From Singulisphaera sp. (GTDB lineage Bacteria; Planctomycetota; Planctomycetia; Isosphaerales; Isosphaeraceae): a DNA stretch of 34,335 bases. Numbering within the stretch: the stretch's first letter is position 1; each line of letters begins with the position of its first letter. The position numbers were made by a program, and so were the translations under genes. Positions 1 through 3,979 of this stretch are shown piece after piece. The stretch is from contig DAIDJG010000123.1 of assembly GCA_027451445.1 (NCBI GenBank), forward strand, positions 1 through 34,335, written 5' to 3'. Below the pieces are notes generated by a model. The model did no database searches. It had not been told where the DNA came from and saw nothing but the letters and a program-made list of their open reading frames with translations.

Positions 1-76
1 CTTCGCCTATGGGGTGCAGGCTCGCCACGACGGAGTGCCGAATCGAGTTCACTTGCGTTTCGGACTGATCGTTCAC
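1..76 (-). CDS. Possible 5' end of a gene leaving the left edge
   Basis: A minus-strand frame opens with GTG at 76 and runs off the window edge without a stop, giving 25 residues beginning VNDQSETQVNSIRHSVV. The composition is protein-like, and a GGAG lies about 11 nt upstream. The same frame also stays open upstream of the GTG, so the start is uncertain. No family can be recognised from so few residues. It may equally be a chance open frame. Confidence 0.22.
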   Translation of the reverse strand, partial: MNDQSETQVNSIRHSVVASLHPIGE

Positions 77-190
77 CTCCAGTTGCTCTCCACCCCGCCT
101 CGCGGCGACGCAGTTACCTTTGGTTACGGGATGCCAGAACATCCCGGCAAGGACTTGCACCCTGCTGATTCGATGCAATTACAGGCGCAC

Positions 191-325
191 ACCCCACCCG
201 CCTTGTGCGGGTGGTGAAGGAGGCCACTGGCTAGAGACGGGTGACTGCGCGGAGGTACATCGTTGGGCTCGAGGTCGTTCTCTAGCCACAGACCTTCTTC
301 ACCACCCGCACAAGGCGGGTGGGGT
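191..325. repeat. 47-bp element in inverted orientation (two copies)
   Basis: Copy A (191-237) and copy B (279-325, reversed) are 47 bp each, match at 43 positions without gaps, and are separated by 41 bp. Each contains its own hairpin: an 8-bp stem (194-201 with 207-214; 302-309 with 315-322) around a five-base loop that reads CTTGT on one strand. The pair could therefore fold as two small hairpins or as one long imperfect hairpin, as REP doublets (REPINs) do. The function is unknown. Confidence 0.8.
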
Positions 326-344
326 CGTATGTGCTCATGCAACG

Positions 345-391
345 CGTCTAGCCTGCGACCTGCTTCACCAGCCACACAAGGTGGCTGGGGT
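345..391 (-). repeat. Third copy of the 47-bp palindromic element
   Basis: This copy lies exactly 66 bp downstream of copy B in the same orientation and matches it at 37 of 47 positions without gaps. Its hairpin stem (368-375 with 381-388) differs from the other copies at two base pairs, and both differences are compensated on the opposite arm. The loop ACAAG (CTTGT on the minus strand) is unchanged. Confidence 0.75.
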
Positions 392-868
392 CGTGGGATG
401 GCGTACGACGCGCCTCGGGTTAAACCATCTCGGTGCAGACACCAAGTCTATGCGCAAACAGAAGCCAGTACCCAGGCGCGTCCCAAGTTCCCGCACGATT
501 ATTGAGTTGAGTTGACAACGAATTTGCACCATGGTTGCTTCGTGCCATTGGACCTGTGCGTCGAGGGAATAATTGGCGGGTTTCATCGCCTGTCTGTCTG
601 CACAATCATCGGCACCTGGGCCACACCGGGCTCGTGCCGAGTAGGCCGCAAGAATTAGCGACCTGCTCGGCGATCCACTTCACCTCGATGCTGCAGAACC
701 TGAAGAAACTGGCCAGGCACAAAACCGGGACTTTATAAAGACGATTGCGCAGGGACCACCGGGTCGGGCCGATGCGTGTTTCGATGGGCCGCAGACCGAT
801 CGTTAGTCCGACGTCATCTTCCATGCCTGGCCAGAACATCGAGCATCTCGCAGTCAGTTGTCTGCGGG

Positions 869-3800
869 TCAGTCCTTCGACTTCTTGATCCGAACATCGC
901 CCAGGTCCCGGTTTTCGCCGGGGTTGAGCGTGAAATCGTCGGTTAGGTCGCCCAGTACTTGAACACTTTCCTTGAGCACCTCCAGGCGGTATTTCGCGCC
1001 CGGTACCAGCCCTTCGAGTTTGAATCGGCGATCGGGCTCGATCGCGAACTGCTCCTTGTCGTATTCGTGGCCGTTCAGGGTATGCAACGGCAGTTTGTAA
1101 TCCTCGAGCATGATTTGCAGGCCACGAAAGAGCGGCTTGCCCGCGTCGTCGACGAGACGCCCAGTGAGCGTCGCCCAGGGCTGAAGTTTGAGCGTGACCG
1201 GTTCATCGCCCTCTTCGGTGACAACCGCCATCCCCGTCCACTTGTTGGGAACATAACGCGCCACCACCTCCCTGCGCTCGCCCGGATAGAGGTTCGTGAC
1301 ATTGAAGGAAGACTGCTCAATCTCCTCCATGGGATTCTGAATCTGGTTGCCAACGCCGCTGGCCTCGATCCTGTTGCGCGGTTGGCCATCGGGCCCAATG
1401 ACGTGGACGAGTCGTGACTTCCCCTTCCTCAAAGGGATGTCGCATTTGAACTCGTCCACGCCTTCCGGAATATTCACTTCAACGGTCGTATTGCGAAGGC
1501 AGACGTTAAAACCAAGCGCGTCGTAGAGCGATTCGGAGTTGTCGTCTTGCTTCAAACCCTTGATCTTTTCGAAACCAACGCCATAGAGATACTCGTCGCC
1601 GCCTCCGCCGCTGACGATCCCGCGCCCGGGATAGCCGCGAATCCGGAAAGTTCCGTTGCTCTCGGCGTGCGAATCGTCGTCGAACGCGGGGTGAACGCCG
1701 TCCTTCAGGTCGGCTTTCAGGTAAGGGTTGTCTCGAAAAGCATGATATTCCGCGGAACCGCCCCAGTCGCCCTTACCGGTGGCCTCGTCGTAAATGCGCC
1801 CGGTGATCCAGACGCCCTTCGCAAGCTTAATGGACACTTGCATCGGCTCATCACTGGGTTTGATTTCGAGCGTCAGGTTGCTCCCAAAGTACGGCTGTTT
1901 TTTGGGCGGCTCCACCTGGAAAAAGGCGTTATCACGGAGCGGATAGCTTTCGATGCGGAAGCGGCCGGCCTTGTCCGTCGTTGTGAAAAATCGATCAAAG
2001 CCGGGGTACTCCACGGTGCTCACGTCCCGCGAGAGGAACTTCGCACCCTCGACGGGTTTGCCGGTCGTTTTGTCGATGATTACACCCTCGATCGTCCGCC
2101 CGCGCTGGAGTTTGCACTCGAACGTGCTGCCGTACACAACGAGATCCGGCCGCGGGTTGACGACCAACTTGCGAGTTTCTTCGGAATACATCGAGACGTG
2201 AATGGGGTCGTCAAGCCGTCGTGTGACCACCGTGATGAGTTCCGACGCGAGGTTCGGAAACCCGTCGATATAGAGCTCGACCATACGATTCTTACCCACG
2301 CCGAGGAGCGTGAATGTCCCTTCCGCATTGCTGGTGACAGCCGGAATTAAGGGAGCATAGACCGACGGACGGTCGCCCAGGCGGCCGTAGTCGATCAGGC
2401 TGATGAACATCCCCAGCGACCGAAGGTAGGCATTGACCTCGCCGGCGTTTTTGACCTCTTCGAGCCAGGCGGAGAGCCCGTCGCCGGGTGGAATTTCGCG
2501 CGGTTGCCAGGTCACGCGGTCGTCTTCGAGCTCCATGAGGGGGTCGCCCTTGCAGCGCGGCCAATTGACGTTACGCACCCGAATGCGTGCGCCGGCGACG
2601 GGCTTGCCATCAGGGCCAATGAGCCGGCCACGAATTGGCTCTTCGGGCGCGAGTTTGATCGTGAGGCCGTCGCCGGATTCCGGCGTGCCAAAGCCATGCC
2701 CGGGCGCTACGGCAAGAAGCCACGGCCTGGCCTGCTTGATCTCGTCCTCGTCGGTATGAGGCGCACCGCGGCGGTCGGGCGACTCAAGGACGGTCAGCGT
2801 ACTGCCGTCCGGCAGCGTCGTCACCTTCGGCTGCGGCCCTGGCATGTTTGCGGACTTCCTCGGGCCGAGCTTGCGTTTGGTTTGGAAGCGGAAACGCCCG
2901 TCGGCGCCGGTCACGGCCTTCCGTTCCGGTGCAAGCATGCGCCGATCGCGTCGATAAATCACCGCGTTGGGGACCGGATTGCTGTTCGCATCCAGCACGC
3001 GCCCGACGATGTCGACCTGGCCCCACTTCTCGGGGTGGGATTCGATGTCGTCTTCGTCGGGGATCAAACGCGCGATCGGATCTGGCTCAGGATCTTGTGC
3101 GGGCACGGCCGCGACCGCGTCGACGCCTCGGGGTTGTTGCGACGGCGCGGGCGGGGCCGCGGGTGCTTCGGGCCTGGAGCCGAGGGCCACGGTCGCCCCG
3201 GCAATCGTGAGCCCGAACAATATCATCAGTACAACAACCTTCATGACTTGACCTCCTGTCATTTCCTTGAGAACGGCTGCAGCCAGTGGGGTGAGCATCC
3301 CTTTGGCGACCTGGGTGGTCGATTGGAGCAGGTGCGGTGAAAGTGCGGCCAGCGGTGCGACAAGTTGCCCCGACTCATCCGGATCGGTCTTGAGACGTTT
3401 CTGGAGACGGTCGCGCGCCGCACTGAGCCGCCGACGAACCGTCGCCTCGCCACAGCCGATTTCCTGGGCCGCTTCAACCTGGGTTTTGCCTTCGAGCAGG
3501 CAAAGCACCAGGGCCTGGCGCAGCGCGACCGGTAAGCGGGCGATTTCCTCGTGAAGCTGTGCGAGTTGGGGATGCAACTGGGAAGTTACTCGCACTTGCA
3601 TATCAAACAGCGCCCCCATACGCTGTTCCCGCGTGTTGCGTCTGGCGGTGTCGACGCTCAGGTGCTTCGAAACGCGGTAGGCGACCTCATGGAGCCAGCC
3701 GCCGAGCGAATCATCAACGCGAATCGCATTCGCCTTCTGGACCAGAATGAGGAACACCGCCTGAAAAGCATCCTCCGCCTGGATTTCGTCGTGCACGATG

Positions 3801-3979
3801 CTGCCGCAGACCCCGAGAACCATCGGCCCGTGGCGTGCGACGAGCGTGGAAAACGCATCCTCATCGCGTGTCGCGCGATAACGACTCAGCAGCACGCCGT
3901 CGGACAGTCCACCCGTTTGCCCTCCCGTGAAGAGGTGGTGAATTTGGGGCAAGATCGCGCGCAGATACATTTTAGCCAT
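869..3979 (-). CDS. ECF sigma factor fused to membrane segment and large extracytoplasmic region
   Basis: The protein has 1036 residues. Residues about 40-110 look like sigma-70 region 2 (LVARHGPMVLGVC, then AEDAFQAVFLILVQKA). Residues about 150-200 look like region 4, with a helix-turn-helix around TQVEAAQEIGCGEATVRRRL. A hydrophobic segment follows at about 245-267 (KVVVLMILFGLTIAGATVAL), then a proline-rich linker and about 720 residues with repeated beta-rich units such as GRVLDANSNPVPNAVIYRRD and GRLIGPDGKPVAGARIRVRN. These resemble carboxypeptidase regulatory-like (CarboxypepD_reg) domains. Planctomycetes are known for ECF sigma factors with long C-terminal extensions. I infer that the outside part senses an envelope signal and the sigma domains act in the cytoplasm, replacing a separate anti-sigma factor; none is encoded nearby. 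The ATG at 3979 was kept as start; ATG 3970 is possible. Confidence 0.88.
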   Translation of the reverse strand: MAKMYLRAILPQIHHLFTGGQTGGLSDGVLLSRYRATRDEDAFSTLVARHGPMVLGVCGSIVHDEIQAEDAFQAVFLILVQKANAIRVDDSLGGWLHEVAYRVSKHLSVDTARRNTREQRMGALFDMQVRVTSQLHPQLAQLHEEIARLPVALRQALVLCLLEGKTQVEAAQEIGCGEATVRRRLSAARDRLQKRLKTDPDESGQLVAPLAALSPHLLQSTTQVAKGMLTPLAAAVLKEMTGGQVMKVVVLMILFGLTIAGATVALGSRPEAPAAPPAPSQQPRGVDAVAAVPAQDPEPDPIARLIPDEDDIESHPEKWGQVDIVGRVLDANSNPVPNAVIYRRDRRMLAPERKAVTGADGRFRFQTKRKLGPRKSANMPGPQPKVTTLPDGSTLTVLESPDRRGAPHTDEDEIKQARPWLLAVAPGHGFGTPESGDGLTIKLAPEEPIRGRLIGPDGKPVAGARIRVRNVNWPRCKGDPLMELEDDRVTWQPREIPPGDGLSAWLEEVKNAGEVNAYLRSLGMFISLIDYGRLGDRPSVYAPLIPAVTSNAEGTFTLLGVGKNRMVELYIDGFPNLASELITVVTRRLDDPIHVSMYSEETRKLVVNPRPDLVVYGSTFECKLQRGRTIEGVIIDKTTGKPVEGAKFLSRDVSTVEYPGFDRFFTTTDKAGRFRIESYPLRDNAFFQVEPPKKQPYFGSNLTLEIKPSDEPMQVSIKLAKGVWITGRIYDEATGKGDWGGSAEYHAFRDNPYLKADLKDGVHPAFDDDSHAESNGTFRIRGYPGRGIVSGGGGDEYLYGVGFEKIKGLKQDDNSESLYDALGFNVCLRNTTVEVNIPEGVDEFKCDIPLRKGKSRLVHVIGPDGQPRNRIEASGVGNQIQNPMEEIEQSSFNVTNLYPGERREVVARYVPNKWTGMAVVTEEGDEPVTLKLQPWATLTGRLVDDAGKPLFRGLQIMLEDYKLPLHTLNGHEYDKEQFAIEPDRRFKLEGLVPGAKYRLEVLKESVQVLGDLTDDFTLNPGENRDLGDVRIKKSKD

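Follow-up and report, generated by a model that had tools for sequence, protein, structure and literature searches.

The 47-bp palindromes at the start of the window (the whole stretch of 34,335 nucleotides analyzed here, contig C123 in the draft genome of Singulisphaera sp., which comprises 10.9 Mb in 622 contigs) belong to a large family of hairpin units with compensated stems, intergenic placement, an outward-pointing array organization and, in relatives, an association with the gene of a fused two-domain Y1 transposase. We consider it likely that these units are REP-type hairpins serving as single-stranded DNA substrates of fused, pseudo-dimeric Y1/HUH transposases of PVC bacteria, that the arrays without a gene are derived, and that the recent local spread has been passive, inside MITEs. 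With somewhat less assurance we propose that PVC bacteria possess a distinct class of REPs, in which an asymmetric HUH transposase, fused into a pseudo-dimer, has a single composite site, and CTAG-footed hairpins outlive the enzyme as a shared landing pad and cargo of unrelated mobile DNA. Genome-wide counts given below come from searches of the contigs of this genome and of stretches extracted from them. The relevant features of the window are the following.

1–190, minus strand: 5' end of a group II intron, cut by the contig end and inserted directly after column 44 of unit A (GGGGT/GTGCGCC...).
191–237, minus strand: copy A, hairpin unit; 44-nt core 234–191, 5' arm 214–207, loop 206–202, 3' arm 201–194; 63.3 bits with covariance model R1.
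191–508, no strand: surviving part of a T1-type MITE with its unit array; repeat coverage across loci stops at about 508 (10-copy alignment).
238–278, no strand: central spacer between the divergent units, the position of the transposase gene in gene-bearing relatives.
279–325, plus strand: copy B, hairpin unit; core 282–325, arms 302–309/315–322, loop 310–314 (ACAAG), foot CTAG at 282–285; 74.6 bits with model R1.
345–391, plus strand: copy C, hairpin unit of the other stem subtype; core 348–391, arms 368–375/381–388, loop 376–380; 71.6 bits with model R1.
478–506, minus strand: right terminal inverted repeat of type T1 (CTAAATAACCTTGC..GAAC.TGGGACGC, 6 mismatches).

The three copies lie where the sequence-only reading had placed them, one on the minus and two on the plus strand, with 43/47 identical positions between A and B and 37/47 both between B and C and between A and C. 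Far from being the only ones, they are joined by many others: a BLAST search with a 245-bp element as query returned 137 matches, distributed over about 40 places in the genome, and model R1, built from 68 units, identified 119 hairpin units. The unit consensus is CTAGCC NNN GACCTYCTTCA [CCASCCRC ACAAG GYGGSTGG] GGTCG, with the foot CTAG(C) present in 86–94% of the units, depending on the column. Intergenic placement, which had been put forward for checking together with the copy number, was found at 44 of 48 unit loci according to a home-made gene finder, a hexamer score for which long ORFs served as training set; at the remaining loci the overlap is with ORFs of low score or, in one case, with a gene start. 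Coding potential of the repeats themselves was considered and rejected, the ORFs running across them having no match in Pfam. The region 869–3979 of the window (minus strand) encodes a protein of 1036 aa that combines an ECF sigma factor at the N terminus with carboxypeptidase-regulatory-like domains at the C terminus.

Neighboring units in the same orientation are spaced by 63–88 bp, and the start-to-start distance of 66 bp reported for copies B and C, which is correct, is also the most frequent value in the genome. Among clusters of mixed orientation, 23 of 24 have the outward layout (<-<- ->->), with a gap of 5–52 bp between the divergent units, or 40–52 bp in most MITE copies. The family thus resembles REPs and REPINs as a short palindrome in many, mostly intergenic copies with a close inverted organization. 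The earlier description of copies A and B as a REPIN-like inverted pair holds for this organization, but the copies in the window are in fact three members of an outward-facing array of four units that lies within a MITE.

Outside this genome, related units were reached by the structure model but not by BLAST: the 245-bp element had no match in 58 other genomes, one congener included. No units were found in the one congener searched, and five are present in G005, a member of the same family but another genus. A second model (R2) detected related units sporadically, in 12 of 297 genomes of the class, representing five families. Neither the unit element nor the fused protein was found in plasmid records.

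In genomes G249 and G198, a Y1_Tnp gene lies between unit arrays. A cognate Y1 gene flanked by the same repeats was observed in these two genomes, in G134 and at 33 of the 49 loci with a full gene, where perfect hairpins with an 8-bp stem and a 5-nt loop are present on both sides within 500 bp. Perfect hairpins are 86 times denser near the gene than far from it (168 versus 6, or 3.67 versus 0.043 per kb), and they mostly point away from it: 119 are directed outward (68 on the left, minus strand; 51 on the right, plus strand) versus 41 inward (19 on the left, plus strand; 22 on the right, minus strand). All share the CTAGC...AACTT...CC[stem][loop][stem]GGG anatomy, with the leader and foot [CT]TAGC...AACTT; between gene loci the stem sequences vary and the geometry is constant. 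Arrays that flank a gene and the gene-less arrays of the window's genome point outward alike, so the gene-less ones resemble non-autonomous derivatives or relics of the REPIN kind.

A profile search found the fused gene family in 16 of the 297 genomes of the class. Gene and units occur together in five genomes (hypergeometric p = 1.5e-4, uncorrected for kinship); 11 of the 16 gene-bearing genomes have no unit match with model R2, and several carry hairpins of a different sequence beside the gene. A GTDB scan yielded 69 gene loci, mostly in Planctomycetota, but also in Lentisphaerota, Kiritimatiellota and a few others. Usually there is one gene copy per genome versus about 19–20 or more units, with several gene copies in a few genomes. 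Loci L223 and L240 encode an identical fused protein, and their genome belongs to the same class as that of the window. Four gene copies were seen in the Pirellulaceae MAG JAGYIQ01 (L244–L247), and at L247 there are five left-hand and two right-hand hairpins, all of a single stem type. One branch of the fused transposases (L231 1055–2079, L232 780–2197, L280, L281 and L299) is flanked by CCACCGAC-GCGGG-GTCGGTGG hairpins, which have a different loop and form tandem arrays of about 70 bp.

The fused-family gene was not found in the genome of the window or in G246, G265, G191 and G200, all of which carry units; draft assemblies may miss a gene flanked by repeats. The nine Y1 transposases that the genome of the window does encode were rejected as partners, since their loci contain no units and they have no similarity to the fused family. 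The two transposase genes nearest to units of the window's type, L201 307–1025 (minus strand) and L216 2231–2677, are damaged (frameshift; loss of the N half), and the genes between the closest units in G249 and G198 have no intact N half.

The fused proteins are about 265 aa long. All 45 aligned members match PF01797, and all are IS200-like Y1 transposases by both Pfam and NCBIfam. When compared with single-domain TnpA of known structure, the HUH half corresponds to residues 153–260 and the Tyr half to residues 70–126. In the N half, Y121 and Q125 are invariant (45/45) and the HUH position is mostly occupied by Gln, whereas in the C half H212 and H214 of the DH[LVI]H motif are invariant (45/45), and the aligned chains stop 3–8 residues past E257, before any second Tyr helix, with ORFs extending by at most about 40 residues more. 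The active sites of the IS608 TnpA homodimer each pair the Tyr of one subunit with the HUH motif of its partner. The complementary losses in the two Y1 domains imply one composite active site, and the fusion would keep it by taking Tyr and Gln from the N domain and HUH from the C domain, as suggested by residue conservation and by a confident AlphaFold model (pLDDT 93.6, pTM 0.91). The modelled C domain has a Z score of 9.9 to ISDra2 TnpA over 112 residues and of 5.4 to the E. coli TnpA-REP. No other fold with a comparable whole-domain match was among the matches returned by Foldseek/VIA.

These data show that the earlier REP/RAYT suggestion was right in kind, since a REP-type Y1 (HUH) gene is flanked by the hairpins in relatives. 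However, the gene is a two-domain fusion and not a standard RAYT, it was not found in the window's own genome, and the foot is CTAG(C) instead of GTAG. Similarly to the REP/REPIN/BIME systems with RAYT (TnpA-REP), the family has many short intergenic hairpins, inverted pairs and a patchy distribution, as well as a Y1 gene present once and bordered by hairpins of its own (REPtron). It differs from them by the foot, GT[AG]G in REPs versus CTAG(C) here and [CT]TAGC beside the fused genes; by 7 unpaired nt that separate the foot-side stem from the main stem; by arrays that point outward from the gene; and by a fused protein with Y---Q in place of a single domain with Y--NP. Of the features of RAYT class 2, the fused protein has the Y1_Tnp domain with HUH, but Y121xxxQ125 is in the N half and HUH in the C half. 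The TnpA-Y1 class 3 has been described in Planctomycetes with atypical flanking hairpins, a Y----Q motif and, in one genome, hairpins in high copy number; its members have a median length of 178 aa, NHVH and YV..EQ motifs, and the hairpin foot CnGA (PMC6006769). The host group, the atypical flanking hairpins, a motif joining Tyr and Gln and the abundance of hairpins are shared with our system, which the class 3 description nevertheless sets apart by the length of about 265 aa, by a C-half DH[LVI]H motif and by the CTAGC foot. Unexpectedly long proteins were discarded by Quentin et al. 2018 (PMC6006769). In the literature searched we came across no account of a Y1/REP transposase fused from two domains, which is weak evidence for novelty. 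Given the different foot and the lack of a single domain with Y--NP, the system, judged by its sequence features, is a variant that appears to work like REP/RAYT but is filed outside both RAYT class 2 and TnpA-Y1 class 3.

The units could also represent the termini of an ordinary insertion sequence of the IS200/IS605 type, together with those of its deletion derivatives, and not be REPs at all. The fused enzyme indeed scores higher with NF033573 (IS200/IS605) than with NF047646 (REP), it has the class 1 Y---Q motif, and a few genomes contain several gene copies. Like the TnpA of IS608 and ISDra2, it has the Y1 fold and the same Tyr and Gln spacing. On the other hand, it has two domains per chain and one composite site versus two in the homodimer, and it is accompanied by many hairpins versus one per end. 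Since most genomes have one gene copy versus tens of units, several unit pairs stand on each side of the gene, and no tnpB was seen, we regard an ordinary insertion sequence as an unlikely source of the units.

In the genome of the window, many of the arrays are enclosed in MITEs. A four-unit array is surrounded by an element of about 455 bp whose terminal inverted repeats read CTAAATAACCTTGC(R)(S)GAACYTGGGACGC (10 copies aligned), and at 13 loci T1 ends are present at both sides; in the window, the left end is off the contig, beyond the intron. A second end type, T3, bounds both a 296-bp three-unit MITE (L046) and an IS630-family element in contig C277 (CTA-AGCAGGTCCGCAGAA...CTTAG), whose transposase is encoded in two overlapping ORFs (NF033545, DDE_3). 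IS630-family elements prefer CTAG targets with TA duplication. Terminal repeats shared with an autonomous IS630-family element were found for T3 only, the L046 MITE and the C277 element both having CTA...TAG ends. The terminal repeats and CTA..TAG ends of T1 elements fit as well, and many of the T1 copies have non-matching ends without a clean target duplication; a search of this genome for an autonomous T1 element, based on the terminal repeats, returned only MITEs and contig ends. The third type, T2, is found in unit-less MITEs of this genome and in a four-unit MITE of G005. MITEs also hit the CTAG foot of units, for instance in L040, L051 and L056. Two near-identical MITEs of about 170 bp with T1-like ends CTAAATAGCC...GGCTATTTAG were observed (L127 3972–4142 and L056 3231–3401), one of them inserted into a unit at its CTAG foot, which looks like a sign of recent activity. 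In addition, identical 141-bp element ends with a T1-like terminal repeat occur at two contig ends (L125 4646–4786 and L126 1–141) and may be the long inverted termini of an autonomous element that the assembly does not contain in full.

Could the units be no more than interior segments of MITEs of the IS630 type, unrelated to Y1, acting as ballast or as sites for the DDE transposase and spreading by MITE transposition alone? The 13 loci with T1 at both sides and the one with T3 at both sides speak for this, as does the identity of the T3 ends with those of the C277 element (NF033545), and known IS630-family MITEs likewise have terminal inverted repeats, a TA/CTAG target and no autonomy. The units here differ from such MITEs in that REP-type arrays are carried as cargo and T1 has no partner found. 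Moreover, this outward array is seen with three end types (T1 and T3 here, T2 in G005) and with none, the C277 element has no units, and in dozens of genomes Y1 genes are bordered by hairpins built like the units. The Y1 association largely refutes transposition in MITEs as a full account, which we judge improbable; it is retained as the account of recent local spread, being a better documented route in this genome than the fused enzyme.

Evidence for folding of the units is family-wide. As single-stranded DNA, copies B and C are predicted to fold into a main stem of 8 bp closed by a loop of 5 nt, with a bulge of 7 nt (T.CTTCA) and GACC/GGTC as the outer helix, and the 23-nt hairpin arose by chance 0 times in 100 shuffles. 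RNA prediction for the whole region gives the same fold (z = -10.2), to which the A/B inverted pair contributes much, and Rfam had nothing at gathering level in the window and six unit loci. The switch of the stem from CCACCCGC/GCGGGTGG to CCAGCCAC/GTGGCTGG with the ACAAG loop unchanged, which had been taken as a sign of selection on a folded strand, is real. Yet the two forms are widespread subtypes (21 and 29 copies), so the window alone shows no fresh compensatory event. Selection on the fold is supported instead by covariation across the family: columns 24/38 are G-C in 73 units and C-G in 31, columns 27/35 are G-C in 64 and A-T in 42, and columns 28/34 are C-G in 99 and G-C in 11. The covariation score of the 68-unit alignment, 0.188 versus 0.069 in shuffles, was reached in 0/500 of them, and, contrary to what uncompensated stems would give, among the stem positions of 114 units, departures from the most frequent pair affect both arms in 90 cases versus one arm in 45. 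Across the class, eight pairs are changed on both sides (0.332 versus 0.100, 0/500 shuffles, 83 units) in an alignment that was fitted to the structure and so favors it; slid controls score at most 0.034.

Covariation by itself cannot separate a folded strand from the binding site of a dimeric protein recognizing double-stranded DNA, and the core is a perfect palindrome. We nevertheless find such a site very improbable, given the asymmetry outside the palindrome (the 5' CTAGC foot and the leader are on one side only), the conserved loop and the orientation of the units relative to the gene, as expected of single-stranded hairpins of HUH enzymes. The genes flanking the units are in tandem in 16 cases, convergent in 9 and divergent in 9, which matches random expectation with no excess of convergent ends. 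Selection for transcription terminators or mRNA-stabilizing hairpins at gene ends would explain stable, compensated, intergenic hairpins, but it is hardly credible in view of these random orientations, the lack of a T-run after the stem, the tandem arrays and a patchy distribution with absence from the one congener searched.

The hairpins are also a target of a group II intron. After column 44 of unit A the sequence turns into GTGCGCCTG..., and an identical unit/intron junction is present in contigs C51 and C157. The C51 intron has an ORF for a reverse transcriptase (RT; TIGR04416, E = 3e-52) with GsI-IIC RT as the best PDB match, and a sister copy in contig C305, without an RT ORF, contains domain V (Rfam RF00029, 53 bits). 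The shared junction, the RT in C51 and domain V in C305 identify positions 190–1 of the window as the 5' end of a group II intron, which in the assembled sequence replaces one end of the MITE. The insertion is 3' of the hairpin in three contigs, with domain V seen in C305 only and the class assigned by RT similarity only. Members of this intron family outside the window were noted at L053 3617–4690 and L136 2749–3486. The RT gene of the C51 copy is split by a gene for a large serine recombinase, and no intron RT was found in viral contigs. Insertion just 3' of a DNA hairpin and an RT nearest to that of GsI-IIC are shared with bacterial group IIC introns, but the intron here has inserted at a dispersed repeat of the REP type instead of a terminator or an attC site.

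Taken together, these observations suggest the following scenario for REP-type hairpins served by the fused transposase. The autonomous form in relatives would be a REPtron with a central gene and outward hairpins on both sides, and removal of the gene from it would yield exactly the <-<- ->-> array of this genome. The fused enzyme is predicted to bind the CTAGC foot with the hairpin and to cut and join single strands at the units by its one composite active site, so that the units would spread by its activity; from the protein sequences and the structural model we infer that it could mobilize them. The recent spread in this genome was apparently passive, inside MITEs bounded by terminal inverted repeats and using CTAG/TA targets. 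Other mobile DNAs seem to land on the units, MITEs in the CTAG foot and the group II intron just 3' of the hairpin.

Canonical TnpA-REP proteins are monomers, while the TnpA of IS200/IS605 acts as a dimer. The system described here touches on two questions, why TnpA-REP became monomeric and how REPs spread without leaving like insertion sequences. If the scenario is true, a natural single-chain enzyme with one composite site would make both testable, as one cut-and-join per round is expected. The outward hairpins on both sides of a two-domain "cut-and-rejoin" gene in relatives point to the route by which the units may have spread. The finding would add a class of REPs with a different foot, and a case of units that persist without a detectable enzyme and are reused as the target of a group II intron and as the cargo of MITEs.
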